Source: Posidonia oceanica
Taxonomy: Eukaryota > Streptophyta > Magnoliopsida > Alismatales > Posidoniaceae
Length of the DNA: 64,000 nucleotides
Direction of reading: 5' to 3'
Assembly: GCA_037176725.1 (NCBI GenBank)
Contig: JAZBRS010000074.1
Span: 61,694,001 to 61,758,000, forward strand
Below, in pieces: positions 18,061 to 64,000 of the stretch (position 1 is its first letter; each line of letters starts with the position of its first letter). The notes under the pieces were generated by a model. That model was not told where the DNA came from and made no database searches. It saw only the letters and a program-made list of their open reading frames with translations. A program made the translations under genes and the position numbers.

Positions 18061-20029
18061 CTGGACTTTATTTCAATGCACCTAAGTTAAAATAAAATCA
18101 AACAGTTAAACTTAGTTGCTATAGTGAAACGCGGGCTGCCGATGAAAGATTCGGTGATCCAGCGGGCTTCCGGCCGAGGGGAAGGCACGACGAGCTCAGG
18201 TTGAGCTCGGCGGAGCTACTGGAGGTGTCTGGAGGCGATCTAGAGGAGATGGGGCCATCTGGTGCGGTGGAGCTAGCTCGCGGGCGGCGATCGGCGCCAA
18301 GGAAGAAGGAGAAGGTCGGCGAGGTGGAAAATGCAGCACAGGGCACGAGATGCACTAGAAAGGGCTTAAAAGCTAGAGGGGGCGACGACGGAGCTCAGGG
18401 AGGCGTTCATTACCTGAGGGAGCGTGCAGAGTGGTCTGTCGACCTCGGATGGGTGCAGCGGTGGTGCTGTAGGCGGAGGGGGCATTGGAGGTGGCGGTGA
18501 GCTGCAGGCGTGACTTGAGTGAGTCGACAGAGGTGCCTGGAGGCTTAGGGAGGTTTCTGACCTTGCTTTCCTCGCTCAATTCCCAGATTTGGGAAAATGG
18601 GTGCTACTATGAGTTTTGGTTTCTTTTCCTCCTTGTGGCTCTCACCATGGGTTGGCTCTTGCAGGTGGGTTCGTGGGAGGTTGGTCAAGGTGGAGAGGGG
18701 ATGCTGTGGGTGGTGTGTTGCTGTATGAGGAGTTGGGTCACTGTCTGTGTGTGAGGGGTGGATTGGGTTTGCTGCTGCGTGTGAAGGGTTGCTACTGTGA
18801 AATGTGGATTGGACGGGTGCTTCTGGAGCTGTGAAGGATCTGGGATGGCTGTGAATTGGATTTAGTGGGCTCTATGAAGGTGTGCTATGTGTGGGTGAAG
18901 GAAATGGGTTCTGTGGGTGTTCATGAAGAAGATGGGGATTGCAGTGGGGCTGTTGGAGGTATGTTGGTGGTATGGGACGCCATGGAGCCACACAGGGAGC
19001 AAGGAGGTGCAGTGGTGAAGCCAGCCGGGCACAGGAAGGAGGAATGTTACTGTTTTATTAGGTGAGGAAGAAGTGGATGCCGTTGGTGTGGATCTGAGAT
19101 CCACAATCGATGGCCAAGGGGGAGGCAGTGGCAGGAGGCTGAGGTGGTTGTGTGCTGTTGGCTGGAGATGGCAGAGGAGGTGGGAATCTGTAGGAGGAGC
19201 AGTGGTCGTGGGTGGTTGCCAAAGGTGTGAAGGCTGTTGTGTGAGGAGATTGTGATTTTTGGTGTTGATGAAGGAAAAAAGAAATAAAGATGTTGGGCCC
19301 AGATCATGGGCTGAGCAGAAAATGAGAATAAGAAAGAGAGGGCTGGGCTACAGTGAGAAATGGTGTTGTGGAAATAAAGGAAAAAAAGGTTTGAGGGTTG
19401 TGGGCTTGTGTGGGCTTGAGGTGGAAAAAGGGGGAATTAGGGTTTAAAAAAGGAGATTTTAAATGGGGAATTGAATAGGGATTAGAGTTTTGGTTCAAAA
19501 TGGGGTGTCTACAGATGCCCATCCCTGAACGAGGTCAAGTGAAGCGAGACCATGGCTCAGGGTTGACAAGACACCCCACTTGATGCCGGTGAGAGCCAGA
19601 TGTTGCTGTTGGCGTGAGTCACTTACTCGGCGGGTGCATCGAAAGTCATGACTCGTTGCCGCAATGCAAATGCTGATGCAGTTGCAAATGCAAATGTTGA
19701 TGCGATTGCCTATGCTAATGCTCACCGCACTGAACTCCGCTGGCGGGGACGCGGGTGATGCATGCGTGTGTGATGTGGGTGATGTGGTGCTGTGCGCTAA
19801 GCCGTGTACGGCTCAAACGCGGGGAATGCCAATCGATGAGCAATGCTCTAAGCAAGGGCGAGGCAGATAGCATGCTTTGAGCAGTGTATGGCTCAAACGC
19901 GAGGGTGCCATTCGCTGAGCTCTGCTCCAAGCGAAGGCGATGCAGATGCTATGTATGAGATGCGATGTTATGCGATGTTGTTGCTGACTCTACTGGGGAT
20001 ACCTGGAAAGTGTGATGTAAATGCAGCTA

Positions 20030-20160
20030 TCTAGCATGTGATGCTAATGTCGTGCAATGTGATGTGATGCTATGTAATGCAATGAAATGCAATGTAATGT
20101 ATGCAATGTATTGCAATGTATGTAATGTAATGTGATGTAATGTGAAGCAATGTGATGGTA
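20030..20160. repeat. AATGT/AATGC simple repeat
   Basis: A run of ATGTAATGCAATG-type 5-mers and 6-mers with no clear higher period, inside the leader. The second internal region has a shorter relative near 29210-29300. Confidence 0.75.
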
Positions 20161-20530
20161 GCTGGCCGGATAGAAGGGATGTCAGCCCGATGCAGACAAT
20201 GCGAGTGCGGACCCCAGCGTAATCCTGGCAATTAAACCGATGCCCATGAAATGCTAATAGTCATGCGAATGCTTCATGAAATGCAATGAGATGCGATGCA
20301 GTGCAATGGTGAGTATGCAGACTTGTTGCTGGATGATTGCTGGTCATCAGCCCGAAAGAAGGGGTGCCAGAAAAGACTAGCATGCATGCTATCCGGGCAG
20401 TTAGGGCTGCCAGTCCAAAAGGAAAGGAATGGTACCTCAAGGCAATAGATGCGCTCCTAGCATCAAGAAAAGCCAGACATTGTAATGGGTGTTAGTTGAA
20501 CAGTTAGGGATGCCAGCCTGAAGGGAAAAA

Positions 20531-21695
20531 CTTGTCCTCGACCGAGGAAGGAAGAGGGCGGGACTCCGAAGAGGCACGCGAAAGGATTGTCCTCGACCAA
20601 GGAAGCTAGCAGGCGGGACTCCGAAGAGGCACACAAAAGGCTTGTCCTCGCCCGAGGAAGCAAGCAGGCGGACTCCGAAGAGGCACCCGAAAGGCTTGTC
20701 CTTGCCCAAGGAAGCAAGCAGGCAGACTCCGAAGAGGCACACGAAAGGCTTGTCCTCGCCCGAGGAAGCAAGCAAGCGGACTCCGAAGAGGCACGCGAAA
20801 GGCTTGTCCTCGACTAAGGAAGCAAGCAGGCGGACTCCGAAGAGGCAAGCGAAAGGCATGTCCTTGCTTGAGGAAGCAAGCGGGCGAGACTCCGAAGAGG
20901 CAATGCAAAGGCTTGTCCTTGCTTGAGGAAGCAAGTGGGCGAGACTTCGAAGAGGCAACGTGAAAGGCTTGTCCACGCTTGAGGAAGCAAGCGGGCGAGA
21001 CTCTGAAGAGGCAACGCAAAGGCTTGTCCTCACCTGAGGAAGCAAGTGGGCGAGACTCCGAAAAGGCAACGCGAGAGACTTGTCCTCGCCTAAGGAAGCA
21101 AGTGGGCGAGACTCCGAAGAGGCAACGCAAAAGGCTTGTCATCGCCTGAGGAAGCAAGTAGGCGAGACTCCAAAGAGGCAACGCGAAAGGCTTGTCCTTG
21201 ACTGAGGAAGCAAGTGGGCGAGATTTCAAAGAGGCAACGCGAAAGACTTGTCCTCACTTGAGGAAGCAAGCGGGCGAGACTCCGAAGAGGCAACACGAAA
21301 GGCTTGTCCTCGCCTGAGGAAGCAAGCGAGTGAGACTCCCAAGAGGCAACGCGAAAGGCTTGTCCACGACTGAGGAAGCAAGCGGGCGAGACTTCGTAGA
21401 GGCAATGCAAAAGGCTTGTCCTCGCCTGAGGAAGCAAGCGGGCGAGACTCTGAAGAGGCAACGCGAAAGGCTTGTCCTCGCCTGAGGAAGCAAGCGGGCG
21501 AGACTCCAAAAAGGCAACGCTAAAGGCTTGTCCTCGCCTGAGGAAGCAAGTGGGCAAGACTCCGAAAAGGCAACGCTAAAGGCTTGTCCTCACCTAAGGA
21601 AGCCAGTGGGCAAGACTCCGAAGAGACAACGCAAAAGGCTTGTCCTCGCTAGAGGAAGCAAGTGGGCAAGACTCTGAAGAGGCAACGCGAAAGGC
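20531..21695 (+). repeat. Array A: 54-56-bp tandem repeat, about 21 units
   Basis: A typical unit runs from CTTGTCCTCG through CCTGAGGAAGCAAGC and GGGCGAGACTCCGAAGAGG to CAACGCGAAAGG. Spacing of CTTGTC is 54 bp in the first units (20641 to 20695) and 56 bp later (21415, 21471, 21527). It is related to the B units of the second internal region: both keep CTTGTCCTCG, GAGGA-GCAAGC, GGCG-GAC and CGCGAA in the same order. This is the short version of the array that has expanded downstream. Confidence 0.93.
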
Positions 21696-22044
21696 TGAAA
21701 TGTGATAAGTTTTAGAATTATCGACCGCGAAGATAACGGGAATACCAATACTTGGAGGTTTGGTAGAGGTCCATAGACGGTCTTGTGATAGTTAGGGGTG
21801 TCAGCCTGGGGGAGGAGACGATACCAAGGGGCAGCAAGGATGCCCCTGGCATCGAGGGCAGCGACAAGCCAGCGAGTCTGTCAATCAAGAGGGGTGATGA
21901 CAAGTCGAACGACCTGTAACCATAGATGCAAAGGGAATACCATACCCGAAGGTGTGGCAAAGGTCCCTAGACACTCCCGTGACAGTTGGGGATGTCAACC
22001 CAGATGTAGACGGAGAAGTGATACCACAGGGCGGCAAAAAGATG

Positions 22045-22072
22045 CCCCTGGTATCGGCGGAGATACCAGGGG
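22045..22072. other. Perfect 11-bp inverted repeat
   Basis: CCCCTGGTATC (22045-22055), six bases GGCGGA, then GATACCAGGGG (22062-22072). A looser relative (GATACCAAGGGGC ... GCCCCTGGCATC) lies at about 21820-21860. It sits about 90 bp before the next LTR and could form a hairpin in RNA. Role unknown. Confidence 0.8.
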
Positions 22073-22455
22073 ACAGCCGAAGCGCCCTCGGCATCGAAAT
22101 GCAAGGTGAAGACAAAACTAACATGCATGCCAACCGAGTAGTTTAGGGATACCGGCCTGTAGTAACCCTGAAAATTGGCGCATCCATGCATGATGCCAAA
22201 GCTCACGTGCACCGACTGAAAGTAGGTCACTATTAGCAGTGGATCCGAGAAAAGAAACTCTACTCGAAAACACCAGAAAAAAGAGGAAAAAACGAAGATA
22301 AAGAAAAATCAGAGTCGCCACCTAGTCTATTAAATTGGGAGACAAGAAAAACCGGGGAAATGTATAGAAAAACATGCAAAAGGATGCAATGCTATGCAAT
22401 GATATGACTCGTGCCTAGGATAAGGGCATAATGGTCATTGAGGGCCAAGAGAAAG

Positions 22456-22530
22456 GGTAAGGACTCCTGTTACGCACGGGGAAGGTGTTAGGCACCCCTG
22501 ACACGCCTAAGGAATTGGTCTTGCTAGGCT
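22456..22530 (+). promoter_or_regulatory. Conserved LTR block, copy in the middle LTR
   Basis: GGTAAGGACTCCTGTTACGC, then ACGGGGAAGGTGTTAGGCACC and TTGGTCTTGCTAGGCT. About 300 bp into the LTR. Confidence 0.5.
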
Positions 22531-23399
22531 TCTCGCTCGCATATGTAGGAAGATGCATGCTTTGAATGCCTAAATGCCATGAATGCTTAATTACATGCTC
22601 AAATGTATGCTCTAAGTGCTAAGATGCGTGCAGGGGATTAAACATGCAATCTATGTGCTCAGTAGCGCTGCCAGTGTTCCGAACTGGGCGTGCCCTAGTT
22701 CGTAAGAACTCCAGACAGTAAGCATCACTACCTTAAATGCAATGCTGGCAAGAATCAAAATGTCGGGGAAAACCATGCAATGCACAGAACAATATGCAAA
22801 GGGGAAACGAAATAGGGGTGGAAAACAATGCAATGCAAGTGTACAACAAGCAAGAGGAATCAAAGCAAGGGCGATAAAGCCTAATCTACATGCACGAGAA
22901 AACAGATCGTGAAACGATGCATGCAGTGCAAATGGCAAGACAATGAGTGATATGTAGTGATTCAGGTGGGCATAACTTGAGGATCTGATATCTGATTTGA
23001 AATAACTTTGGTTAGAATGAAAGATCATTCAACTAGGAAGACCAGGATAGTTAGATCGTGAAGATCCAACAGTCCGATCAAAAGTTATTTAGGAATCAAG
23101 TTAGATGGCTCAAGGGCCAGAAAAGTTGGTCTAAATGGGGGTCAAAATGCAAAATGCCCCTATGTGTGTGCAATGCAGGGTGTCCTACATGCAATGAGGC
23201 TAATAGTGCTCAAAACAATGCAAAGGAGCTATATGAGATGGCATGAGGATGCTATGCTTGTAAGAAATGCAAATGCAAGGACTTAAGTGCAATTAAAATA
23301 ACTGCAGGGGCCTAAATACAATGTCATGGCAAAATACAATGCAACAAGGTAAAGGCATGATAAAAACTAATGCAACAATGTACAAGGCAAGCATGGGCA

Positions 23400-26161
23400 G
23401 AATGTGTAGACACCCCATTTTGACAGGGTTTTGTTGGAGAATTTCTGGAAGTTGGCTCAGAAGAAGGTGTGGCGAATCCATTTCAAAACGCTACCCAAAA
23501 CAACCCAATTCCATTTTCCAAACCTAATCCAACTCCCAACCCAAAATCAAACCCAAAATAAACCAAATCCCATTTCATAACCTCACCTAAGTCCTCAACC
23601 AAGCCCAAGCCCATTAGCATCCTAGCTACTGAGTGGCACGTCCAAGCGCCGCTTGCACAGGCGACTGAACCATGTCGCCAGCATTGGTGGCGACTGAGTT
23701 AGACGCCAAGTGTTGCGGCGACTGGACTGTAACTCAGTCCACTGCCCAGGCTTCCCTGCCATGGTCGCTGCCAGTCGTCGGCCTCCTGCCGGTCGTCCCC
23801 TCGCTACTTACTACCACACTACCTCCACGTGTTACATGCCAAGTGCCACCTACTCCCTGCCACCGGTCACCCTCTTTGTCGGCGGCCTTCCCGCCCTCAC
23901 AGCCTCTCACTGGCATGGCCGTCCACCTCCTCTGCCACTGACGACTTCGTCATCCCCTACCTGCAGCACACTTACTTCCTTGGCCTCCGGACCTCCTCAC
24001 AGCCCCTCACTGCGACCACCTCTATGCGTGTCAGCTCCTTCCATCCTCGGGCGTAGAGGAACCCAACGAATAAAACCCCCCTCTTGCCGCTAGAACCCAC
24101 TTCACCGTTCACAATTCACAAGCCATCCTCTCCATCTCCCTTGCTTCTAGAGCAGAGTCTAGAGAGCCTCCCCAGTCCACCCTTGTGTGATCCCTGCATT
24201 TCAAGAGCATTTCCAAGCCTCACCGCGCCACACCGCACCCTTCTTCCCCCACTTCGACGAGCACTCCAGCCATAGCCCGCCAACTCTGACCAAGCCACAA
24301 GAGGTAAGCCTCCAACTGCATTGTTAGTTTAAGGGTCCGGGAAGCTTCTCGGACCTCTGCTCTACATTCCTAGATAACTAGTTCATCTCCCGTGCCCTTG
24401 GCCGACCCAACGGCCTCGGACGTTTGCCAATGCTGGCAAGGTCCCAGTGGAGGTGGGACAGAGGCACGAGCCTCCCTCCTTGGCCTGGGGATGCTTCCTC
24501 GCATCCTCCTCCGCGCCCAAAAGCTTCACAACCCTCTCCTCGTGCGCTCGGCCGCCCTTGTGGCTGGAGCTCAATGGACGATGGCGGCGAAATGTGGCAG
24601 AGATGGGTGGGGCTCCTCGAGCCACCATTTTCCACACTAAAGGTGTGGTTGGGTTCGTGGGAACGTCGTCATGCTTCCCCAACCCTCGTCGGTATTTTAT
24701 GCTTCGCCACCGTGGCGAATTATGGCGTTGAAGTCCAGTGATCGGACTGCTAGGTCAGGCGCCGGCGTCACCGGTGACTAATCTGCAACACAACCTGCTT
24801 ACCGGCCCGACTTTGGGGTGCTGCTCCAACCACCTCAAGGTCCCATCTTGCTTGCTTAATATATGTTTGTGATCTCTGATGAATGGTCTATATGCCTATG
24901 TGAATGGTTCTCTATTTTGCTTGCTCATGAGTTCCAGATTTGGCTATGAAGTTGGCTGTCTGGGCAACTTTAGTTGCAGGCCTGCCGCCGGTCCAACTGG
25001 CGACTTGGCTGCAACTCGGGCCAGTTCTCCGGCCAACTTCCGGCCATTGTATCTTGTGACTCACACACCCATTTTGTTATCTGAATGCATGTTTTTGTTC
25101 TGTGTTGAGCCAACTTTAGCTCCACGAGATTTATTTCCAGTTCTACTGTGATTGTCTTGCTTGTTTTTGGCAAAGAAAGCCTCTGCTTGGGAGGTCTGTT
25201 AATGGTAGAGCCGCCTGATGTAGTGGCGACTGACCTTGGATGCCGCTCTCTGAGGTTGCTGGGTTGGTTGCTGCTGTCACCGGCGACCCACCTGCAGTCC
25301 AAGCAGTGGGCGAGTCGCTGGTTTTCCACCGTGTCGCTTTGCTTTTTGACTCCTTTTTATGCAGATCTTGTTGCTAAGCATGCAAGCTTTGATTCCCAAT
25401 TTTTGGCTTCCATTTCGTATCGTTTTTGCACCTTATTCGTGGTAGTAGCCACTGCTGTGTGGGGAGCTGGTTCTGCTGTCTGCCGCCTGCCTCACCGGTG
25501 ACTGGCACAGGCACCGGCCATACCGGCGACCATGCCCTGATCTAGATAGAGCACTGAGTTGCCGTTTTCATCGCCTTCCACTTGTTTCCTTTGACGCTTC
25601 TATTTTTAGTTTGCTCTCTTGTTGTTTATCACCACTTTGTAATGCCTCGATTTTGCTTAATTGTTTTTTAAACAAGGTTTTGCTAAGCTTCGCATGGTTT
25701 ATAAATTGCATCCTGCATACCGCTCTAGGGTGCATATAAACTGGCATTCATTTGCCAACATTTTGCCACACTGTAGTGGATCAGTTAGAAAGACCGATTC
25801 CTTGGGCGTGTCGAGGGCGCCTAACACCTTCTCTGCATGTAATAGGAGTCCTTACCCTTTCTCTAGACAGCATTGACTTTGTGTCATCCATTTGCATTGA
25901 TTTCCACATGCTTCTAAAATGCATACGTTTTCCTTACACGTTCTTTACATGGTTTTCCTAGTTTTCTCGTTTTAATAAATTAGGTGGCGACTCCCTTTCT
26001 TTTATTTTACTTTCCTTTTGCGTTCGTCTCTATTTTCTGGTGTTTTCGAGTCGAAAATCCCTCCTCGGATCCAACTGCTAATAGCAACCTAACTTCGGTT
26101 GGTGCACACGAGCTTTGGCATCGTGCATGGACATGCCGATTTTCAGGGTTACTACAGAATG
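23400..26161 (-). mobile_element. Nested solo LTR (23405-26156), antiparallel, target duplication GAATG
   Basis: On the plus strand it starts TGTAGACACCCCATTTTGACAGG and ends CAGGGTTACTACA, so on the minus strand it is a TGTAGTAACCCTG...GGGGTGTCTACA LTR of the same family, 2,752 bp. GAATG flanks it at 23400-23404 and 26157-26161. The conserved block (25783-25867, minus strand) and GAGTCGCCACC (25983-25993, minus strand) are present. The middle (23650-25530) is GC-rich and recurs with GGCGAC/ACCGGCGAC words. Open frames there, such as 23710-24093, look like compositional noise. Confidence 0.9.
25783..25867 (-). promoter_or_regulatory. Conserved LTR block, copy in the antiparallel solo LTR
   Basis: On the minus strand GGTAAGGACTCCTATTACAT, then GCAGAGAAGGTGTTAGGCGCC. 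It lies about 290 bp from the LTR start, as in the other copies. Confidence 0.5.
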
Positions 26162-26489
26162 CAACATTAATTAAACGACATGCATGCAGCAGAGCAAGAA
26201 AGGGACCTAAATGCAGTTTTGAAAACATATTGGACCTAAGTGCAATGCAGAGGAAACATGCGAACAAGCAACAGTTAGATTTTAGGACTAACATGCAATT
26301 AGACCTAACTATTGGGTTTTAATGCAATTGCAAAGTAGGATGTGAAAGCATGCAAGAATTAAACATTTGGACCTACATGCAATTTTGAAAACATGTAGGG
26401 TCTAGAATGCAAAGCTAAACTAGCATGCAAACAAGCAACAGTTTAAAATGTGGACTGATATGCAATTTTGAAAACTGTTGGACCTTAAA

Positions 26490-26960
26490 GCAATGCAATA
26501 TGATTAAAAAATGCAACTTAAATGATGTTTAAATGCATTATGAACTTAAATGCAAATAATACAAACCACAGGCGTTTACAGCAATGTAATATGGTTGAAA
26601 AAGTGATTTAAATGAGATGTTCAATGCAAACAGGACTAAAGTGCAAATAAACTTAATCACAGGACTAAAATGCAATGTAATATGGTTTAAAACATGCATT
26701 TAAATGACTGATGGATGCAGATTGGACTAAAATGCAATAAAACTAACTTGCAGGACTTTATTACAATGTAATAAGGTTTTAAAATTGCATTTAAATGACA
26801 GTTGAAAGCAAACTGGACCTAAATGTAATAATACAAACTTACAGGACTTTATTACAATGTAATAAGATTTCAGAATTGCATTTAAATGACAGTTGAAAGC
26901 AAACTGGATTTAAATGCAATAATTGAAACATGCAGAAGTTTTATGCAATGCAATATGATT
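26490..26960. repeat. About 90-bp tandem repeat inside the middle LTR
   Basis: TGATTAAA/TGGTTGAA/TGGTTTAA/AAGGTTTT/AAGATTT words recur at about 26501, 26592, 26683, 26774 and 26864, spacing 90-91 bp, preceded by (A)CAATG(T/C)AATA and followed by an ATTTAAATGA phrase. Equivalent to the repeat at 17380-18060. Confidence 0.75.
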
Positions 26961-28379
26961 CAAAACAACATTTAAATGATTTTCAATTGAAGTAGGACTG
27001 AAATGAAAATAAAACAAAATTAAGGAGTAAATTGCGATGCATGATTTAAAACAAAATTAAATGACTTAAATGAATGCATGAAGGACTTGTATGCAATAAA
27101 ATTTAAATGCTGGACTACAATGTAATGTAGTATGATTTTAAAACTCAATTAAATGATTTTCAATTGAAGCAGGACCTAAATGCAAAGAAAAGTAAATTTG
27201 CAGACTTAAATGCAATGCATGAAACGAACTTAAATCAAAACCATTTAAATCAAACAGCTATAGTGCTACAGTAGCCCTTGAGTTGCTGCAGACTGCGTCG
27301 GAGAAGACGATGCTGCCAGCGGCGATCCGGCAGGCTGGAGGCCAAGCGGCGGCATCCGGGAGCTGGAGGGAGTCTCCCCAGAGGTGTAGGTGACTTGAAC
27401 GGCACGTAGTGGTGGCGGAGTTGCCCTGTCGACGTTGGCGTACTGTTGCAGAGGAAGCTGCAGGTGGGCCGATCGCTGCAGGCTACGGCGGATTGCGGGC
27501 AACGTTGGACTCAGCTGTTGGAGCTCCAGCGGTGCTCTTGGAGTGGTCCAGAGGGTTGGAGCACAGCGGCGTGTAGCAGCAGCTGCTGGTCGGTGCTAGA
27601 GAAGACGACGACCGCGGTGGAGCACTAAAGCTATGCTACGGTCCTAAACTAGCAATTAAAGGGCTAGGAAGCTAAAGAGGCATGCAAGGAAGCTAGGGGT
27701 GATGTTCGTTACCTGTGCGAGGGCTAGGAGTGGTCTGTCAACCTCTATTGGGTGCGGTGGTAGAGTTGGAGGTTGCGGCGACGCTGCGGGCATCGGGAGG
27801 CACATGGCGCGATCGGAGCAGCTTGCAGGAGCTCTGAGGAAGGTCTAGAGCCAAATAGAAGCTCGATTGCTTGCACAGGATGCAAAATCGGAAATTGGGT
27901 CTCTCTAAGCTTTTTTCTTCTTTTCTGGGGGTGTAGCTCTCTCTGTGGGCTATGGCTCTCTCCATGGGTTGTAGAGGGTTGGTGGAGATGGAGGTGTGGT
28001 CTGGAGGTGATTGGGAGGCTGTGTTTGGATAATTTTTGGTTCTGGGCTATGTATGGAGGAAGGGGGAAAAAATGGGTTCTTTGGCTACTGTCTGTATGAG
28101 GATTGGTTCTGGGGGGAAAATGTGTTGCCTCTAGAATGTGTGTGCATGAGGAGATGGGTTTATTTGCTTGGGGTTGAAGGCCACAGAAGATAAGGGCAAG
28201 TGGTGTTGTGTTTTTTGGGCAGTGGATTGGCTATGGGTTGGCAGTGGATAGAGCTCTGTGTGAGTGGGAAATGAGGGGGGAAGTAAGTGTAGAGTGGATT
28301 GGTAGTAAGTGAGAAGAAGAAGGTGTGGAAGGTTGTGCATGGTGTGAAGGCCGTGAAGGTATTGTTTGCAGGTGGTTGA

Positions 28380-28700
28380 AGGTGGAGGAAAAGAAGAGGA
28401 GAAAGAAGAAAGGTTGGGCCTACAGATGAAAGGAAAAGAAAGAAAAAAAGAGAAAGGAGGAGAGGAGATGGGCTGGGCCTGGTGGAAGAGAAAGGAAAAA
28501 GAAGAAAAAGAAAGGAAGGAGTGAGTGGGCTTGGGCTGAAGTGGTTTTGGAGAAAAAAGAAAGAAAAGAAGGAGGAGGAGAAGAAGAAAAAGAAAGGAAA
28601 GAAGGAAAGAAAGAAAGAAAGAAAGAAGGGAAGATGAAAAAGGGAGAAAGAAGGTGGGCTAGGGCTTGGTTTTTTGTGAAGAAGAAAAAGGAGAAGAGAA
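28380..28700 (+). repeat. Purine-rich (AG) tract in the middle LTR
   Basis: Runs of GGAAAAGAAGAAAAAGAAAGG type, including a GAAA run near 28605-28625. It lies in the equivalent place to the tract at 11850-12140. Confidence 0.85.
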
Positions 28701-28913
28701 AGAAAAGAAAAGGATGGCTTGGGTTTGGTTTGTGCTTGTGTGGGTGTGACCTAGAGTTTCTAGGGTTTTATTAGGGCTTTAACCTAAGGTTTCTAGGGCT
28801 TTAACCTAGGGTTTAGATGTGGGTTTGGTTTAGAAAATGAGTGTGGTTTTGGGTTTGGTTTTAGTGTTTTGGAGAAAAGCACCAATTCAGCCTGTCAAAA
28901 TGGGGTGTCTACA

Positions 28914-35400: not shown

Positions 35401-35439
35401 CGAAGCAGCTTGTCCTGGACAGAGGAGCAAGTAGGTGGG
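29464..35439 (+). repeat. Array B, left part: 56-bp tandem repeat, about 107 units
   Basis: Typical unit: CTTGTCCTCGACGGAGGAGC, AAGCAGGCGGGACCCCGGCA, GGGTCGCGCGAAGCGG (56 bp). Units differ mainly at CpG positions (TCGACGG/TCGATGG/TCAACGG; GCGCG/GTGCG/ACGCG/GCACG) and in the short loop between GACC and GGTC. There is a higher-order period of about 2,412 bp. Minus- and plus-strand frames of 200-300 codons are open through it only because the unit lacks stops. I do not call them genes. Confidence 0.96.
29965..34789 (+). repeat. Two tandem copies of a 2,412-bp higher-order repeat in array B
   Basis: Unit variants recur in the same order about 2,412-2,413 bp apart. CTCAACGAAGGAGCAAGTAGG occurs at about 30195 and 32607, and GGCGGGACCACAGTTGGGTC at about 30833 and 33246. 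Copy 1 is about 29965-32376 and copy 2 about 32377-34789, each near 43 units. A truncated third copy follows (ACCACAGTTGGG again at about 34930, only 1,683 bp later), implying loss of about 13 units. Confidence 0.88.
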
Positions 35440-39850: not shown

Positions 39851-39899
39851 ATGGGAAAAATAAAATTAGTAAAAAGGAACTAAAAATAAATAAAAATAC

Positions 39900-52717: not shown

Positions 52718-53778
52718 CAGGCGGGACCCCACAGCAGGGTCGCACGAAGCGACTTGTCCTCGACGGAGGAGCAAGCATGTTGGACCTTGGCAGGGTCGTG
52801 CGAAGCGGCTTGTCCTTGACGAAGGAGTAAGCAAACAGGACCCCCCGATAGGGTCACACGTAGCGGCTTGTTCTCGATGGAGGAGCAAGTAGGCGGGACC
52901 CCGGTAGGGTCGCACGAAGCTGCTTGTCCTTGACGGAGGAGCTAGCAGGCAGGACCCCGGCTTGGTCACACGAAGCGGCTTGTCCTCGAGGGAGGAACCA
53001 GTAGGCAGACCCCTTAGAAGGGTCACGCGAAGTGGCATGTCCTCGACAGAGGAGCAAGCAGGCAGGACCTCGCTAGGGACGTGCGAAGCAGCTATTCCTC
53101 GAAAGAGGAGCGAGCAGGCAGGACACCCCGACAGGGTCGCGCTAAGTGGCTTTTCCTCGATGGAGGAGCTAGCAGGCAGGACCGTTCGGTAGGGTTGCGC
53201 GAAGCGACTTGTCCTCGACTGAGGAGCAAGCAGGCTGGACCTCGGCAGGGTAGCGCGAAGTGGCTTGTCCTTGACAGAGGAACAAGCAGGCGGGACACCC
53301 CGGTAGGGTTGCGCGAAGCAGCTTTTCCTCGATGGAGGAGCAAGCAGGCGGGACCCCCCAGTAGGGTTGCGCGAAGCAGCTGGTCCTCGACGGGGGAGCA
53401 ACCAGGCTAGACCTCGACAGGGTCGCGTGAAGCGGCTTGTCCTCGATAGAGGAGCAAGCAGGCAGGACCCCAGTAGGGTCGCAAGATGCAGCTTATCCTC
53501 GACGGAGGAGCAAGCTGGCGGGACCCCAGCATGGTCGCGAGTAGCAGCTTGTCCTCGATGGGGGAGCAAGCAGGCGGGACCCTGGCAGGGTCACGCGAAG
53601 CGGCATGTCCTTGACGAAAGAGCAAGCAGGCAGGACCCCCCGATAGGGTCGCACGAAGCTGCTTGTCCTCGACGGAGGAGCAAGCAGGTGAGACCCCCCG
53701 GCAAGGTCGCACGATGTGGCTTGTCCTCGACGGAGGAGCAAGCAGGCGGGACCCTGGCAGGTCATGCGAAGTAGAAAG
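52718..53778 (+). repeat. Second B block (56-bp units, about 19)
   Basis: Begins abruptly in the middle of a C unit: CCCTCGACCGAG is followed by CAGGCGGGACCCCACAGCAGGGTC. Units are more diverged and irregular than in the main B array (GGACACCCCGGTAGGG, GGACCGTTCGGTAGGG) and resemble the end of the main B array near 43900-44450. Confidence 0.9.
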
Positions 53779-54047
53779 CTTGTCCTCGACAGAGGAAACA
53801 AGCACGCGAGACCCTAGCAAGTCATGCGAAACAGAAGGCTTGTCCTCGACCGAGGAAACAAGCGCGCGGGACCCCAACAGGTCACGCGAAGTGGAAGGCT
53901 AGTCCTTGACTAAGGAAACAAGCGCGCGGGACCCCAGTTGGTCACGCGAAGCTGAAGGGTTGTCCTCGAACGAGGAAACAAGCGTGCGGGACCCCAGCAG
54001 GTCACGCGAAGCATAAGGCTTGTCCTTGACAGATGAAACAAGCGCAC
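53779..54047 (+). repeat. Second D block (60-bp units, about 4-5)
   Basis: CTTGTCC-spaced 60-bp units with GGACCCCAACAGGTCACGCG and related forms, followed by the D-to-C junction GATGGCAAAGGCAAAGGAGAAAAGG. Confidence 0.88.
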
Positions 54048-57000
54048 AGGATGGCAAAGGCAAAGGAGAAAAGGGCTCGCCCTCGAACGAGGAAGCAAGC
54101 ACACGGAAAGACAGGGGCTTGTCCTTGACCGAGGAAGAAACAAGCACACGGGACTTCGGAGAGTCAAGCAAGGAGAAAGGCTCGCCCGTGACCGAGGAAG
54201 CAAGCACACGGGAAGACAAAGGCTCGTCCTCGACTTAGGAGGAACAAGCACGTGGGACTCTAGATAGTCACGCAAGGAGAAAGGCTCGCCCTCGACCGAG
54301 GAAGCAAGCACGCGGTAAGACAAAGGCTCGTCGTCGACCGAGGACGAACAAGCATGCGGGACTCTGGAGAGTCACGCAAGGAGAAAGGCTCGCCCTCAAC
54401 CGTGGAAGCAAGCACGTGGGAATACAAAGGCTCTCATCCTCGACAATGGAGTAACAAGCATGCGGGACTCCGGAGAGTCATGCAAGGAGAAAGGCTCGCT
54501 CTCAACTGAGGAAGCAAGCTCGCGGGAAGACAAAGGCTCGTCCCCGACCGAGGAGGAACAAGCACATGGGACTCCCAAGAGACATGCAAGGAGAAAGGCT
54601 CGCCCTCGACCGAGGAAGCAAGTATGTGGGAAGACAAAGGCTCGTCCTCGACAGAGGAGGAACAAGCACGCGGGACTCCGGAGAGTAACGCAAGGAGAAA
54701 GGCTCGCTCTCGACTGAGGAAGCAAGCATACAAGTAGACAAATGCTCGTCCATGACCAGGGAGGAACAAGCACACGGGTCTCCGCAGAGTCACGCAAGGA
54801 GAAAGGCTCGCCCTCGACCGAGGAAGCCAGCACGTGGGAAGGCAAAGGCTCGTCCTCAACCAAGGAGGAACAAGCACGCGAGACTCTGGAGAGTCCCACA
54901 GGGGGAAAGGTTCGCCCTCGACCGAGGAAGCAAGCATGCAGCAAGACAAAGGCTCGTCCTCGACCGAGGAGGAACAAGCACGCGAGACTCCGGAGAGTCA
55001 CGTAAGGAAAAAGGCTCACTGTCGACCAAGGAAGCAAGCACACAGGAAGACAAAGGCTCCTCCTCGACCAAGGAGGAGCAAGCACACAGGACTCTAGAGA
55101 GTAACGCAAGGAGAATGGCTCGCCCTCGACCAAGGAAGCAATCACGTGGGAAGACAAAGGCTCGTCGTCGACCGAGGAGGAACAAGCACGCGAGACTCTG
55201 GAGAGTCACGTAAGGACAACGGCACGCCCTCAACCGAGGAAGCAAGCACGCTGGAAGACAAAGGCTCGTCCTCGACCGAGGAGGAACAAGCACGCGGGAC
55301 ACCAAAGAGTCACACAAGGAGAAAGGCTCGCCCTCGATCGACAAAGCAAGCATGCGGGAAGCCAGAGGCTCGTCGTCAACCGTAGAGGAACAAGTACGCG
55401 AGACCTCGAAGAGTCACGCAAGGAGAAAGGCTCGCCCTCGACTGAGGAAGCAAACATGCGGGAAGACAAAGGCTCGTCCTCGACCGAGGAGGAAGAAGCA
55501 TGCGGGACTCCAGAGAGTCACGCATGGATAATGGCTCACTCTCGACCGAGGAAGCAAGCACGCGGGAAGACAAAGGCTCGTCCTCGACTGAGGAGGAACG
55601 AGCACACCAGACTCCAGAGAGTCACGCAAGGAGAAAGGCTCACCCTCGACCGAGGAAGCAAGCACACGGGAAGACAAAGGCTCATCTTTGACCGAGGAAG
55701 AACAAGCACGTGGAACTCCGCAGAGTCATGCATGAAGAAAGGCTTGCCCTCAACCGAGGAAGCAAGCACGCGTGAAGACAAAGGCTCATCCTCTACTGAG
55801 GAGGAACAGGCACGCGGGACTCTGGTGAGTCCCGCAAGGAGAAAGGCTCACCCTCGACTAAGGAAGCAAGCACGTGGGAAGACAAAGGCTCGTCCTCGAC
55901 CATGGAGGAACAAGCATGTAGGACTCCGGAGAGTCACGCAAGGAGAAAGGCTCGCCCTCGACCGAGGAAGGAAGCACGTGGGAAGGCAAAGGCTCGACCT
56001 CGACCAAGGAGGAACAAGCACGCGGGATTCCGGGGAGTCACGAAAGGTGAAAGGATCACCCTCAACCGATGAAGCAAGCACGTGGGAAGATGAAGCGTCG
56101 TCCTCGACCGAGGAGGAACAAGCATACGGGACACTGGAGAGTCACGCATGGGGAAATGCTCGCCCTCAAACGAGGATGCAAGCATGAGGGAAGACAAAGG
56201 CTCGTCCTTGACCGAGGACAAACAAGCACGCGGGACTCCGGAGAATCAGGCAAGGAGAAAGGCTCACCCTCGATCAAGGAAGCAAGCACGTGGGAATACA
56301 AAGGGTCATCCTCGACAAAGCAGGAACAAGCACACGGGACTCTGGGGAGTCACGCAAGGAGAAAGGCTCGCTCTCAATCGAGGAAGCAAGCACACAGGAA
56401 GACAAAGGCTCATCCTCGATCGAGGAGGAACAAGCATGCGGGACTCCCAAGAGTAACGCTAGGAGAAATGCTCGCGCTTGACCGAGGAAGTAAGCACGCG
56501 GGAAGACAAAGGCTCGTCATCGACTGAGGAGGGACAAGCACGTGGGACTCCAGAGAGTCACGCACGGAGAACGGCTCGCTCTCGATCGATGAAGCAAGCA
56601 CACGGTAGACAAAGGCTCGTTCTTGACCAAGGAGGAACAAGCATGCAAGACACTGGAGAGTCACACAATGAGAAAGGCTCATCCTTGACCGAGGAAGCAA
56701 GCACGCGGGAAGAAGAAGGCTCGTCCTCGACCGAGGAGGAACAAGCACGCGAGACACTGGAGAGTCACGCATGGAGAACGGCTCGCCCTCGATCGAGGAA
56801 GCAAGCACGCTGGAAGACAAAGGCTCGTCCTCAAATGAGGTCGAACAAGCACGTGAGACTCCGGAGAGTCACGCAAGGAGAAAGGCTCGCCCTCAACCGA
56901 GGAAGCAAGCATGCGGGAAGACATAGGTTTGTCCTCGATCGAGGAGGAACAAGCACACGGGACACCGAATAGTTATGCAAGGAGAAAGATTTGCCCTCGA

Positions 57001-60000
57001 CCGAGGAAGCAAGCACGCGGGAAGACAATGGCTCGTCCTCGACCGAGGACGAACATGCACTCGAGACTCCGGAGAGTCACGCAAGGAGAAAGGCTCGCCC
57101 TTGACCAAAGAAGAAAGCACGTGGGAAGACAGAGGCTCATCCTTGACTGAGGAGGAACAAGCACGTGGGACTCTATAGAGTCACGCAAGTAGAAAGGCTC
57201 ACCCTCGACTAAGGAAGCAAGCAAGCAGGAAGACAAAGCCTCGTCCTCGACCGAGGAGGAACAAGCACTCAGGACTCTGGAGAGTCCTACACGGAGAAAG
57301 GCTCGCCCTCAACCAAGGAAGCAAGCACGCGGGAAGACAAAGGCTCATCCTCAACCGTGGAGGATCAGGCATGCAGGACACTGGAGAGTCACGCAAGGAG
57401 AAAGGCTCGCCCTCGATCGAGGTAGCAAGCACACGGGAAGGCGAAGGCTCATCCTCGACTAAGGAGGAACAAGCATGCCAGACTCTGGAGAGTCACGTAA
57501 GGAGAATGGCTTGCCCTCGATCGAGGAAGCTTGCACGGGGGTTGACAAAGGCTCGTCCTCGACTGAGGAGGAACTAGCACGTGGGACTCCGTAGAGTTAC
57601 GAAAGGAGAAAAGCTCGCCCTCAATCGAGGAAGCAAGCTTGCAAGAGGACAAAGGATCGTCCTCGACCAAGGTGGAACTAGCACACGAGACTCCTAGGTG
57701 TCACTCAAGGAGAAAGGCTCACCCTCGACCGAGGAAGCAATCATGCGGGAAGACAAAGGCTTGTCCTCGACCACGGAGGAAGAAGCACGTGGGACTCCAA
57801 AGAGTCACGCATGGATAATGGCTCACTCTCGACCGAGGAAGCAAGCACGCGGGAAGACAAAGGCTCATCCTCGACTGAGGAGGAACAAGCACGCCGGACT
57901 CCAGAGAGTCATGCAAGGAGAAAGGCTCACCCTCGACCGAGGAAACAAGCACGTGGGAAGACAAAGGCTCATCCTGGACCGAGGAGGAACAAGCACACGG
58001 AACTCCGCAGAGTCACGCATGGAGAAAGGCTTGCCCTCAACCGAGGAAGCAAGCACACGTGAAGACAAAGGCTCGTCCTCTACTGAGGAGGAACAGGCAC
58101 GTGGGACTTTGATGAGTCCCTCAAGGACAAAGGCTCGCCCTCAACTGAGGAAGAAAGGCTCGCCCTCGACTGAGGAAGCAAGCACGCGGGAAGACAAAGG
58201 CTCGTCCTCGACCGTGGAGGAACAAGCACGTGGGACTCCGGAGAGTCACGCAAGGAGAAAGGCTCGCCCTCGACCGAGGAAGCAAGGATGCGGGAAGACA
58301 AAGGCTCATCCTCGGCTGAGGAGGAACAAGCTTGTGGAACTCCACCGTGTCACGCATGGAGAAAGGCTCACCCTCAACCGTGGAAGCAAGCATGCGGGAA
58401 GACAAAGGCTCATCCTCTACCGAGGAGGAACAAGCACGTGGGACTCCAGAGAGTCCTACATGGAGAAATGCTCGCCCTCGACCGAGGATGCAAGCACTCG
58501 GGAAGACAAAGGCTCATCCTCGACCGTGGAGGAACAAGCACGTGGGACTCCGTAGAGTCACGCAAGGAGAAAGGCTCACCCTCGACCGAAGAAGCAAGGA
58601 CGCGGGAAGACAAAGGCTCGTCATCAACTGAGGAGGGACAAGCACGTGGGACTCCAGAGAGTCACGCACAGAGAAAGGCTCACTCTCGATCGATGAAGCA
58701 GGCACACGGTTGACATAGGCACGTTGTCGACCAGGGAGGAACAAGCATGCAGGACACTGAAGAGTCACGCAATGAGAAAGGCTCATCCTTGACCGAGGAA
58801 GCAAGCACGCGGGAAGACGAAGGCTCGTCCTCGACCAAGGAGGAACAAGCACGCGAGACTCTAGAGAGTCACGCATGGAGAACGGCTCGCCCTCGACCGA
58901 GGAAGCAAGCACGCTGGAAGACAAAGGCTCGTCCTCAAACGACGTGGAACAAGCACGCAAGACTCCGGAGAGTCATGCAAGGAGAAAGGCTCGCCCTCGA
59001 CCGAGGAAGCAAGCATGTGGGAAGACATAGGTTTGTCCTCGATCGAGGAGGAACAAGCACACGGGACTCTGGATAGTCATGCAAGGAGAAAGATTTGCCC
59101 TCGACCGAGGAAGCAAGCACGTGGGAAGACAATGGCTTGTCCTCGACGAACAAGCACTCGAGACTCCAAAGAGTCACGCAAGGAGAAAGGCTCACCCTTG
59201 ATCAAAGAAGAAAGCACGTGGGAAGACAGAGGCTCATCCTCGACTGAGGAGGAACAAGCACGCGGGACTCTGTAGAGTCACGCAAGTAGAAAGGCTCGCC
59301 CTCGACCAAGGAAGCAAGCATGCAGGAAGACAAAGCCTCGTCCTCGACCGAGGAGGAACAAGCACTCAGGACTCTGGAGAGTCCTACATGGAGAAAGGCT
59401 CGCCCTCGACCGAGGAAGCAAGCACGCAGGAAGACAAAGGCTCATCCTCAACCGTGGAGGATCAGGCACGTAGGACTCCGGAGAGTCACGCAAGGAGAAA
59501 GGCTCGCCTTCGATCGAGGTAGCAAGCACACGGGAAGACGAAGGCTCGTCCTCGACTGAGGAGGAACAAGCATGCCAGACTCTGGAGAGTCACGCAAGGA
59601 GAATGGCTTGCCCTCGATCAAGGAAGCTTGCACGGGGGTTGACAAAGGCTCGTCCTCGACCAAGGAGGAACTAGCACGTAGGACTTCGTAGAGTCATGAA
59701 AGGAGAAAGGCTTGCCCTCAATCGAGGAAGCAAGCATGCAAGAGGACAAAGGCTCGTCCTCGACCGAGGTGGAACTAGCATGCGGGACTCCTGAGAGTCA
59801 CTCAAGGAGAAAGGCTCACCCTTGACCGAGGAAGCAATCATGCGGGAAGACAAAGGCTTGTCCTTGACCAAGGAGGAAGAAGTACGCGGGACTCCAAAGA
59901 GTCACGCATGGATAATGGCTCACTCTCGACCGAAGAAGCAAGCACGCGGGAAGACAAAGGCTCATCCTCGACTAAGGAGGAACAAGCATGCTGGACTCCA

Positions 60001-60895
60001 AAGAGTTACGTAAGGAGAAAGGCTCACCCTCGACCGAGGAAGCAAGCACATGGGAAGACAAAGGCTCATCCTGGACCGAGGAGGAACAAGCACGTGGAAC
60101 TCTGCAGAGTCACGCATGGAGAAAGGCTTGCCCTCAACCGAGGAAGCAAGCACACGTGAAGACAAAGGCTCATCCTCTACTGAGGAGGAACAGGCACACG
60201 GGACTCCGGTGAGTCCCGCAAGGAGAAAGGCTCGCTCTCGACTGAGGAAGAAAGGCTCGCCCTCGACTGAGGAAGCAAGCACGCGGGAAGACAAAGGCTC
60301 GTCCTCGACCGTGGAGGAACAAGCACGTGGGACTCCAGAGAGTCACGCAAGGAGAAAGGCTCGCCCTCGACCAAGGAAGCAAGGATGCGGGAAGACAAAG
60401 GCTCATCCTCGGCCGAGGAGGAACAAGCACGTGGAACTCAACCGAGTCATGCATGGAGAAAGGCTCGCCCTCAACCGTGGAAGCAAGCACGTGGGAAGAC
60501 AAAGGCTCGTCCTCTACCGAGGAGGAACAAGCACGTGGGACTCCAGAGAGTCCTACATGGAGAAATGCTAACCCTCGACCGAGGATGCAAGCACTCGGGA
60601 AGACAAAGGCTCATCCTCGACCGTGGAGGAACAAGCACGCGGGACTCCGTAGAGTCATGCAATGAGAAAGGCTCACCCTCGACCGAAGAAGCAAGGACGT
60701 GGGAAGACAAAGGCTCATCCTCGACCGAGGAGGAACTAGCACGCTGGACTCCAGAGAGTCACGCAAGGGGAATGGCTCGTGCTAAACTGAGGAAGCTAGC
60801 ATGCAAGAAGACAAAGGCTCATCCTCGATCAAGGAGGAACAAGCACGCGGGACTCCGGAGAGTCACGTTAGGAGAAAGGCTCGCCCTCGACCGAG
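54048..60895 (+). repeat. Second C block (104-bp units, about 65)
   Basis: Same 62+42 unit as the first C block. From 55440 onward it is the duplicated copy of 47262-52717, so only 54048-55439 adds new unit variants. Confidence 0.93.
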
Positions 60896-61956
60896 CAGGC
60901 GGGACCCCACAGCAGGGTCGCACGAAGCGACTTGTCCTCGACGGAGGAGCAAGCATGTTGGACCTTGGCAGGGTCGTGCGAAGCGGCTTGTCCTTGACGA
61001 AGGAGTAAGCAAACAGGACCCCCCGATAGGGTCACACGTAGCGGCTTGTTCTCGATGGAGGAGCAAGTAGGCGGGACCCCGGTAGGGTCGCACGAAGCTG
61101 CTTGTCCTTGACGGAGGAGCTAGCAGGCAGGACCCCGGCTTGGTCACACGAAGCGGCTTGTCCTCGAGGGAGGAACCAGTAGGCAGACCCCTTAGAAGGG
61201 TCACGCGAAGTGGCATGTCCTCGACAGAGGAGCAAGCAGGCAGGACCTCGCTAGGGACGTGCGAAGCAGCTATTCCTCGAAAGAGGAGCGAGTAGGCAGG
61301 ACACCCCGACAGGGTCGCGCTAAGTGGCTTTTCCTCGATGGAGGAGCTAGCAGGCAGGACCCTTCGGTAGGGTTGCGCGAAGCGACTTGTCCTCGACTGA
61401 GGAGCAAGCAGGCTGGACCTCGGCAGGGTAGCGCGAAGTGGCTTGTCCTTGACAGAGGAACAAGCAGGCGGGATACCCCGGTAGGGTTGCGCGAAGCAGC
61501 TTTTCCTCGATGGAGGAGCAAGCAGCCGAGACCCCCCAGTAGGGTTGCGCGAAGCAGCTGGTCCTCGACGGGGGAGCAACCAGGCTAGACCTCGACAGGG
61601 TCGCGTGAAGCGGCTTGTCCTCGATAGAGGAGCAAGCAGGCAGGACCCCAGTAGGGTCGCAAGATGCAGCTTATCCTCGACGGAGGAGCAAGCTGGCGGG
61701 ACCCCAGCATGGTCGCGAGTAGCAGCTTGTCCTCGATGGGGGAGCAAGCAGGCGGGACCCTGGCAGGGTCACGCGAAGCGGCATGTCCTTGACGGAAGAG
61801 CAAGCAGGCAGGACCCCCCGATAGGGTCGCACGAAGCTGCTTGTCCTCGACGGAGGAGCAAGCAGGTGAGACCCCCCGGCAAGGTCGCACGATGTGGCTT
61901 GTCCTCGACGGAGGAGCAAGCAGGCGGGACCCTGGCAGGTCATGCGAAGTAGAAAG
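60896..61956 (+). repeat. Third B block (copy of 52718-53778)
   Basis: Belongs to copy 2 of the 8.18-kb duplication and keeps the same irregular units and the same abrupt C-to-B junction. Confidence 0.92.
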
Positions 61957-62225
61957 CTTGTCCTCGACAGAGGAAACAAGCACGCGAGACCCTAGCAAGT
62001 CATGCGAAACAGAAGGCTTGTCCTCGACCGAGGAAACAAGCGCGCGGGACCCCAACAGGTCACGCGAAGTGGAAGGCTAGTCCTTGACTAAGGAAACAAG
62101 CGCGCGGGACCCCAGTTGGTCACGCGAAGCTGAAGGGTTGTCCTCGAACGAGGAAACAAGCGTGCGGGACCCCAGCAGGTCACGCGAAGCATAAGGCTTG
62201 TCCTTGACAGATGAAACAAGCGCGC
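61957..62225 (+). repeat. Third D block (copy of 53779-54047)
   Basis: 60-bp units in the same order as in the second D block, ending at the shared D-to-C junction. Confidence 0.9.
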
Positions 62226-64000
62226 AGGATGGCAAAGGCAAAGGAGAAAAGGGCTCGCCCTCGAACGAGGAAGCAAGCACATGGAAAGACAGGGGCTTGT
62301 CCTTGACCGAGGAAGAAACAAGCACACAGGACTTCGGAGAGTCAAGCAAGGAGAAAGGCTCGCCCGTGACCGAGGAAGCAAGCACACGGGAAGACAAAGG
62401 CTCGTCCTCGACTTAGGAGGAACAAGCACGTGGGACTCTAGATAGTCACGCAAGGAGAAAGGCTCGCCCTCGACCGAGGAAGCAAGCACGCGGTAAGACA
62501 AAGGCTCGTCGTCGACCGAGGACGAACAAGCATGCGGGACTCTGGAGAGTCACGCAAGGAGAAAGGCTCGCCCTCAACCGTGGAAGCAAGCACGTGGGAA
62601 TACAAAGGCTCTCATCCTCGACAATGGAGTAACAAGCATGCGGGACTCCGGAGAGTCATGCAAGGAGAAAGGCTCGCTCTCAACTGAGGAAGCAAGCTCG
62701 CGGGAAGACAAAGGCTCGTCCCCGACCGAGGAGGAACAAGCACATGGGACTCCCAAGAGACATGCAAGGAGAAAGGCTCGCCCTCGACCGAGGAAGCAAG
62801 TATGTGGGAAGACAAAGGCTCGTCCTCGACAGAGGAGGAACAAGCACGCGGGACTCCGGAGAGTAACGCAAGGAGAAAGGCTCGCTCTCGACTGAGGAAG
62901 CAAGCATACAAGTAGACAAATGCTCGTCCATGACCAGGGAGGAACAAGCACACGGGTCTCCGCAGAGTCACGCAAGGAGAAAGGCTCGCCCTCGACCGAG
63001 GAAGCCAGCACGTGGGAAGGCAAAGGCTCGTCCTCAACCAAGGAGGAACAAGCACGCGAGACTCTGGAGAGTCCCACAGGGGGAAAGGTTCGCCCTCGAC
63101 CGAGGAAGCAAGCATGCAGCAAGACAAAGGCTCGTCCTCGACCGAGGAGGAACAAGCACGCGAGACTCCGGAGAGTCACGTAAGGAAAAAGGCTCACTGT
63201 CGACCAAGGAAGCAAGCACACAGGAAGACAAAGGCTCCTCCTCGACCAAGGAGGAGCAAGCACACAGGACTCTAGAGAGTAACGCAAGGAGAATGGCTCG
63301 CCCTCGACCAAGGAAGCAATCACGTGGGAAGACAAAGGCTCGTCGTCGACCGAGGAGGAACAAGCACGCGAGACTCTGGAGAGTCACGTAAGGACAACGG
63401 CACGCCCTCAACCGAGGAAGCAAGCACGCTGGAAGACAAAGGCTCGTCCTCGACCGAGGAGGAACAAGCACGCGGGACACCAAAGAGTCACACAAGGAGA
63501 AAGGCTCGCCCTCGATCGACAAAGCAAGCATGCGGGAAGCCAGAGGCTCGTCGTCAACCGTAGAGGAACAAGTACGCGAGACCTCGAAGAGTCACGCAAG
63601 GAGAAAGGCTCGCCCTCGACCGAAGAAGCAAGCATGCAGGAAGACAAAGGCTCGTCCTCAATTGCGAAGGAACAAGCACGCGAGACTCCGGAGAGTCACG
63701 CAAGGAGAAAGGCTCACCCTCGACCGAGGAAGCAAGCACGCGGGAAGACAGAGGCTCGTCCTCGATCGAGGAGGAACAAGCACTCGGGACTCCAGAGAGT
63801 CCCGCACGGAGAAAGACTCGCCCTCGACCGAGGAAGCAAGCACGCGGGAAGAAAAAGGCTCGTCCTCGACCGTGGAGGATCAAGCACGCAGGACTCCGGA
63901 GAGTCACGCAAGGAGAAAGGCTCGCCCTCGACCGAGGTAGCAAGCACGCGGGATGGCGAAGGCTCGTCCTCGACCGAGTAGGAACATGCATGCGGGACTC
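62226..64000 (+). repeat. Third C block, running off the window
   Basis: 104-bp units. Up to 63617 they copy 54048-55439. From 63618 on the units differ from those at 47262 and 55440, so a different continuation begins. The end of the array and any closing LTR are not in the window. Confidence 0.92.

Follow-up and report, generated by a model that had tools for sequence, protein, structure and literature searches.

Satellites are said to have been traced by Macas in 2009 to tandem arrays in the 3′ untranslated regions (3′ UTRs) of Tat/Ogre retrotransposons. The route from such an array to a satellite is already known, with that work cited for it in PMC7004042 and PMC6317226, and the locus described here is one case of it that can be read end to end. 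In the parts of the Lathyrus sativus Ogre study drawn on here (Vondrak et al., Plant J., PMC7004042), satellites derive from Tat/Ogre 3′-UTR arrays. As at our locus, short 3′-UTR arrays lie downstream of gag-pol, a few have expanded to great length, and further elements are inserted into the expanded arrays; unlike that account, ours concerns a single assembled copy in which both ends of the element are present, the array is a composite of up to three unit types, and events can be dated relative to each other. The soybean Gmr9/GmOgre elements, in the portions of PMC3305785 used, likewise interleave several unit types between the coding end and the LTR, and the longest unbroken array given is 4,760 bp, compared with ~30 kb here. 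Excerpts on Retand (PMC11963269) describe a similarly long region between pol and the 3′ LTR, tandem arrays in about half of Retand and some non-autonomous members; Retand LTRs are 315-1,194 bp, whereas those here are about 3.3-5.8 kb, and Retand has an antisense TRP28 ORF where our element E3 has a sense ORF for a plant mobile domain.

The window is a 64,000-nucleotide stretch of Posidonia oceanica DNA, and very probably it records nested members of the Tat clade in which a composite array is copied with E2-type elements and has grown at this place, after insertion, to ~30 kb. The window and its right flank would hold members of one plant Ty3/gypsy family with the minus strand as sense strand, and their tandem arrays, placed between the pol region and the 3′ LTR, would differ by subfamily. 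The following features were located.

16238-19513, minus strand, E1 3′ LTR (partner 117321-120592 outside the window, 93.3% identity; flanks GTGGG and GAGGG, 4 of 5 bases alike)
19514-20530, minus strand, end of the E1 3′ UTR, the first leader of the earlier note (polypurine-like tract at the LTR edge)
20531-21696, minus strand, array A in the E1 3′ UTR (56 bp, 21 copies)
21697-22157, minus strand, E1 3′ UTR up to the E2 insertion point (CGGCC at 22153-22157)
22158-23404, minus strand, E2 3′ LTR, first part (partner 108869-112648, 90.9% identity)
23405-26156, plus strand, solo LTR in the E2 3′ LTR (GAATG at both sides)
26157-28913, minus strand, E2 3′ LTR, remainder (92.4-92.5% identity)
28914-29462, minus strand, end of the E2 3′ UTR, the second leader of the earlier note (aligned to the first)
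29463-35439, minus strand, array B, first part (56 bp)
35440-41365, minus strand, solo LTR of E3 type within array B (GTGGG at both sides)
41366-44442, minus strand, array B, second part (56 bp)
44443-44831, minus strand, array D (60 bp)
44848-52715, minus strand, array C (104 bp, 62 + 42)
47267-55429, unstranded, first copy of an 8177/8178-bp tandem duplication (second copy about 55444-63607)
52716-54045, minus strand, B-D block within C (tandem repeat search)
54046-60893, minus strand, array C (tandem repeat search)
60894-62229, minus strand, B-D block within C (tandem repeat search)
62241-64000, minus strand, array C, continuing to 65537 beyond the window

The coding strand of the window elements is the minus strand. 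Just right of the window is a complete 27.4-kb element, E3, inserted where the E2 array ends (65537), with a CACGT target-site duplication and LTRs that differ at 88 of 5738 sites. Its minus strand encodes gag, protease, RT, two RNase H domains, integrase and a plant-mobile-domain ORF, spread over several ORFs that are separated by stops; the 396 bp between the protease and RT ORFs share their frame and are themselves open from stop to stop. One ORF (L010:4135-5517, minus) contains RT_RNaseH and then RVT_3, the following ORF contains the integrase core, and the plant mobile domain (PF10536, E 2e-20) is downstream of integrase in L010:400-1665, minus. The top-scoring named relative of the RNase H is from Magnolia sinica (55%). 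In Ogre and Retand a second RNase H (aRH) lies between RH and INT, and 57% of Ogre have a plant mobile domain ORF, the position and orientation of which are also used as criteria (PMC6317226). E3 has an aRH besides RH, which E1 and E2 lack, and it has the plant mobile domain ORF, an Ogre feature scored here by presence; based on the predicted domain content of E3, we assign the family to the Tat clade of Ty3/gypsy.

A PBS-like sequence, GTGGCGACTCCGCTGGGGA, directly follows the LTR at 108868 and 154711, and GGGAGGGGCATC precedes the other LTR end, all read on the minus strand; 5-bp duplications also accompany the window elements. Since E3 is coded on the minus strand, what the earlier note took for a 5′ leader is where the 3′ UTR ends, together with a polypurine-like tract, and the arrays lie in the 3′ UTR, as they do in Tat/Ogre elements. 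The order of coding region and then array, between pol and the 3′ LTR, holds in E3, E4 and E5. Both internal regions do follow LTRs ending in TGTCTACA, and the two leaders are homologous as proposed (84% over 229 positions, 19495-19720 against 28895-29121). The LTR at 22158 had been read as the closing LTR of E1; it belongs to E2, which spans 22158-112648 within E1 between perfect CGGCC duplications, and its three pieces match 108869-112648 at 90.9, 92.5 and 92.4% identity. The E2 LTR pair differs at 252 of 3766 sites (~7%), unequally in its two parts (0.096 and 0.059). The description of these elements as non-coding was right: neither E1 nor E2 has an E3-type gag, RT or integrase, and both are non-autonomous.

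The description of array A as about 21 copies of a 54-56-bp unit agrees with our measurement, and the 56-, 60- and 104-bp types that were proposed are the B, D and C arrays from 29463 on. That these arrays fill the rest of the window is correct, and they end beyond it, at 65537, beside unique 3′-UTR sequence. After subtraction of the solo LTR at 35440-41365, correctly recognized and flanked on each side by GTGGG, the E2 array is 30,144 bp in full; within the window it is ~28.6 kb by coordinates, not the "over 29 kb" given before. The A, B, D and C units are homologous, and A and B are identical at 44 of 54 aligned positions. Chance is not a serious explanation, as the tandem repeat (TRF) scores of arrays A, B and C all run to thousands. 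The 104-bp C unit may derive from a dimer of D-like units that lost a segment. The earlier idea that an LTR-retrotransposon minisatellite was enlarged into the satellite-like array is supported.

The composite order recurs elsewhere in the genome. B is followed by C at all nine other C-array loci read, with D at five and the tail adjoining the array at six; we did not see the tail at C3, C25 and C20 within the stretch fetched, and C20 has other 3′-UTR pieces. The array adjoins the tail in E1, E2 and six other copies, and the tail-B junction is common to E2, C29, C43 and C46. Of 2411 candidate matches to the right-hand junction of the array, 40 were scored, and at 36 other loci the match extended through the non-array end; the array-end junction of E2, with the flanks of E3 joined, is common to E2 and C48. 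Of the 26 other loci listed as matches to a 901-base B-D-C query, 22 cover 850 or more of its bases. The order of tail, B, often D, C and unique 3′ UTR would be copied along with E2-type elements, and the composite appears to have spread by retrotransposition rather than segmental duplication. Its presence in many copies makes it older than this locus; it did not diversify here.

The E2 array is expanded beyond the usual element-borne length: C units cover 20.7 kb in E2, compared with a C span of about 1-3.3 kb in six other copies (both by coordinates). We predict that most of this growth followed the insertion of E2 and proceeded by duplication of unit blocks, probably through unequal exchange or slippage. 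One block was duplicated recently. The two 8.18-kb copies have 28 differences in 8118 bases (0.34%, counted over stretches chosen as at least 96% alike), compared with ~7% between the E2 LTRs, and the second copy could be a false duplication of the assembly. Among B units of E2, the fraction with a nearest relative inside E2 is 0.89, where unit numbers would predict 0.47. For C units of C48, the fraction with a nearest relative in their own locus is 0.77 (0.11 expected), which indicates that local turnover is not special to E2. B unit identity is about equal within loci (0.805-0.839) and between loci (0.804-0.820), so units do not date the growth; for collinear unit homology between copies, we found only best matches anchored at shared array edges (C29, C43, C46).

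An independent satellite may have existed first, with elements capturing pieces of a long array, which we consider unlikely. Long arrays do exist, by coordinates only (C matches of ~12.8 kb at C18:94613867-94626635 and 8.1 kb at C56:83946480-83954578; B matches covering ~7 kb at C25), and the array of E2 may therefore have long counterparts; C3 and C25 lack element sequence to the left of the array within the stretch examined. However, the right-hand junction recurs at the 36 other loci and the tail-B junction is common to four, which points to descent from a single arrangement that lay within an element, and the autonomous relatives hold other arrays in the same slot. The earlier note had set against its own reading a satellite free of element sequence; the tail at six of nine C-array loci and the junction at 36 others place it with elements. 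It is just as improbable that the 30-kb array was already full length in the RNA of E2, which would then have transposed as a ~43-kb element. E2 is indeed bounded by LTRs and a perfect CGGCC duplication, but C is far shorter in the six other copies measured, and one block doubled far later than the insertion. We give almost no credence to the stepwise change of A into B, D and C at this place, starting from a 5′ leader, that was proposed before: the units are homologous, but the strand and the LTR pairing were wrong, and the B-(D)-C composite occurs at many loci. There is no local record of A becoming B and then C, as A belongs to E1-type and B-D-C to E2-type elements.

It is also doubtful that arrays of unrelated units are kept in the 3′-UTR slot for serial stem-loops in the sense RNA, with satellite birth as a by-product; on that reading the stem-loops would serve the element in packaging, in dimerisation or in the pairing of autonomous with non-autonomous RNAs. 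A drawing with two stem-loops is possible for each of the units B, D and C, and inverted repeats also occur in other 3′-UTR arrays (T and those of E3-E5). The test results are mixed and mostly negative. Scored against dinucleotide shuffles on the sense strand, fold energy gave mean z values of -2.4 for B, -3.1 for T, -3.0 for the E4 56-bp array, -1.9 for C in C48, -1.7 for the E5 41/135-bp array, -1.3 for C in E2, -1.2 for the E3 83-bp array, -0.9 for D and +0.2 for A; four arrays of E3-E5 were between -0.6 and 0, and one control array reached -3.0. An exploratory rank test of 14 3′-UTR arrays against 10 controls gave a one-sided p = 0.015, after the 71-bp array at 256885 was moved from the controls to the 3′-UTR group and its other strand used, because its element runs on plus. 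In favour of structure, change is less frequent at paired than at unpaired sites (0.101 vs 0.163 in B of E2; 0.051 vs 0.115 in A), and G.U exceeds A.C in both long stems of the E2 C unit (41 vs 20 and 42 vs 21). Against it, A.C exceeds G.U in the short stem of C (45 vs 29), where we found no gap between paired and unpaired rates (0.107 vs 0.103), and in B of E2 A.C is at least as common as G.U (215 vs 176). B of E2 has no excess of Watson-Crick double changes (38, with 42 expected); in two small sets the counts are 4 (B_C29, 2.0 expected) and 3 (B_C3, 1.8 expected). The main texts of PMC7004042 and PMC3305785 contain no occurrences of "hairpin", "palindrom" or "secondary structure".

On the reading that we favour, of a composite copied with its elements and enlarged after insertion, E2, an old copy, preserves in assembled form an intermediate stage on the way from element-borne minisatellite to satellite. 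It offers both element ends, an empty-site junction and relative dates for the insertion, the nested insertion and the block duplication. With many E2-type copies carrying the same composite, one can ask which local features permit growth in one copy but not in others.

The satellite-like DNA is a composite 3'-UTR array of E2, one of three nested LTR retrotransposons (E1, E2 and E3) whose sense strand is minus. We located the arrays with TRF; coordinates are the position on contig C73 minus 61694000 (the window is C73:61694001-61758000), and those past 64000 run into the 200 kb of right flank examined.

Features of the window and its right flank
20531-21696: array A, 56 bp, 21 copies (E1)
29463-35439 and 41368-44486: array B, 56 bp (E2)
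44443-44831: array D, 60 bp (E2)
44848 onward: array C, 104 bp (E2)
52716-54045 and 60894-62229: further B-D blocks (E2)
23405-26156, plus: solo LTR interrupting the E2 3' LTR, GAATG on both sides
35440-41365: solo LTR within array B, GTGGG on both sides, similar to the E3 LTR (84-92%)
106337-106941 and 114566-115435, minus: pieces of the ORF lying between gag and protease
about 126.8-153.5 kb and 168.2-182.5 kb: coding relatives E4 and E5
L010:400-1665 (minus), 141950-143203, 170873-172099 and 255174-256380: plant-mobile-domain ORFs

The earlier note had array A right. Alignment gives 44 of 54 positions in common for units A and B, 48 of 55 for B and D, and 52 of 58 for D and the 62-bp part of C. 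This 62-bp unit and a similar one cut down to 42 bp make up the 104-bp C unit.

E3 (65561-93005) is a complete element adjoining the array on the right, with LTRs of 97.7% identity and CACGT on both flanks. Its coding ORFs lie on the minus strand and encode gag, protease with a G-patch domain (L010:7933-8949, minus; PF01585, E 1.1e-7), RT, a pair of RNase H domains one after the other, and integrase; one more carries the plant mobile domain. Because stops split these ORFs, E3 may now be inactive. Plant relatives were found for proteins of the elements. The plant-mobile-domain ORF lies 3' of the integrase region, in sense with pol, in four elements of the family. According to PMC6317226, only Tat elements have two RNase H domains, and plant-mobile-domain ORFs are present in 57% of Ogre.

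Read on the minus strand, the LTR 3' terminus is TACTACA; directly beyond it, at 108868 (E2) and 154711, stands GTGGCGACTCCGCTGGGGA, which is likely a primer binding site. GGGAGGGGCATC, likely the polypurine tract, precedes the other LTR end, at the spot where the leader described earlier begins. The two leaders are homologous as claimed (84%, 19495-19720 against 28895-29121). They had been taken as the start of the internal region; the minus coding strand and the positions of the two likely signals therefore place them at the end of the 3' UTR (the tail). The family LTRs hold 90-91-bp arrays of their own, rich in AATGCAAT-like words (17375-18018, 26480-26979 and 110436-110974).

The LTRs of E1 are 16238-19513 and 117321-120592 (93.3%), flanked by GTGGG and GAGGG; without E2 it measures 13.9 kb. 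The LTR at 22158, previously read as closing E1, belongs to E2: 22158-23404 and 26155-28913 pair with 108869-112648 (90.9-92.5% in three pieces), and CGGCC stands at both ends. From these pairings and flanking duplications, therefore, it is not the closing LTR of E1, and E2 sits inserted within the E1 3' UTR. Left of E1, two direct-repeat pairs of 90-91% (1656-2796 with 6939-8069; 2784-4765 with 12313-14279) suggest other nested elements, and there is a minus-strand RT/RNase H remnant at 4-1170.

When the E3 ORFs were compared with the entire 264 kb, the only minus-strand matches in E1 and E2 were the pieces, listed above, of the ORF that lies between gag and protease. Matches to RT, RNase H and integrase at 98794-101160 are on the plus strand (23-34% identity). 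The surrounding 93425-104644 (about 11.2 kb of the E2 internal part) contains this plus-strand remnant of a distant element and is probably a further insert, because the copy on contig C48 is without it. E2 is about 43 kb without inserts, 30.1 kb of it array, or 54.4 kb with this stretch included. The 3' UTRs of E3-E5 have other arrays in the same slot, with units of 26-29, 35, 41, 56, 83 and 135 bp.

All counts of other copies in the 2.96-Gb genome are lower bounds, since the leader query alone gave 12,396 first-look candidates, of which 40 were scored. The C-array query (40 of 1632 candidates scored) matches other loci at 80-88% among the matches listed. We examined nine C-array loci (L029-L038), partly or nearly whole. 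B is followed by C in all nine, and D is found in five (contigs C3, C5, C29, C43 and C25). The tail adjoins the array in six (C48, C5, C29, C69, C46 and C43), with an LTR beside it in five of these; in C20 no tail was seen and other 3'-UTR pieces are present, and C3 and C25 were placed in neither group. The C48 copy is covered from one LTR into the other. Array T, a further 3'-UTR array (50 bp, with the inverted repeat CCGA...TCGG; L029:6554-7897, L032:7342-7527, L002 and L008), stands before B in C48 and C5. Among seven leader-query loci (L002-L008), the slot holds an A-type array in two and a T-type array in two; in three no array was seen within the 1.5 kb examined.

E2, C29, C43 and C46 share the tail-B junction; E2 (E3 flanks joined) and C48 share the array-end junction. 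A 261-base query across the latter (40 of 2411 candidates scored) finds matches reaching query position 257 or beyond at a minimum of 36 other loci. A B-D-C query (44100-45000; 29 of 3916 candidates scored) finds at least 26 other loci among the matches listed, 22 of them with at least 850 of 901 bases covered at 77-82%; some of the loci may hold just a B or a D array. The order and junctions recur at other loci, and the B-(D)-C composite therefore predates this locus.

Measured by coordinates, the C stretch is about 1.0-3.3 kb long in C48, C29, C5, C43, C20 and C69, of which C48 alone was read throughout. In E2 it spans 44848-65537, with two B-D blocks within. By coordinates, C matches lie 12.8 kb apart in C18 (94613867-94626635), 8.1 kb in C56 and about 7 kb in C6, and B matches extend over about 7 kb in C25 (145958046-145965465); these may be further long or expanded copies. 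Within the E2 array an 8177/8178-bp block occurs twice in tandem. Its copies disagree at 28 of 8118 bases (0.34%); this count covers the two stretches chosen for an identity of at least 96% and omits single-base length differences. Between the two LTRs of an element, 252 of 3766 sites differ in E2 (111/1246 and 141/2520 in two parts) and 88 of 5738 in E3. Unless the assembly doubled the block, the duplication is later than both insertions.

The nearest relative of a B unit of E2 lies within E2 in 0.89 of cases, against 0.47 by numbers; in the other six loci the own-locus value is 0.04-0.39. For C units it is 0.93 in E2 (0.82 by numbers), 0.77 in C48 (0.11) and 0.00-0.11 in C3, C29 and C5 (3-8 units each). 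Mean B-unit identity is about equal within and between loci, so most B-unit diversity is older than the copies.

Vondrak et al. (PMC7004042) describe nine L. sativus satellites as expanded 3'-UTR arrays of Ogre elements, report elements inserted into expanded arrays, and cite Macas et al. 2009 for the idea that satellites come from such arrays. The E2 case belongs to this known kind, a satellite from a 3'-UTR array; new in it is that a composite array and relative dates can be read in one assembled copy.
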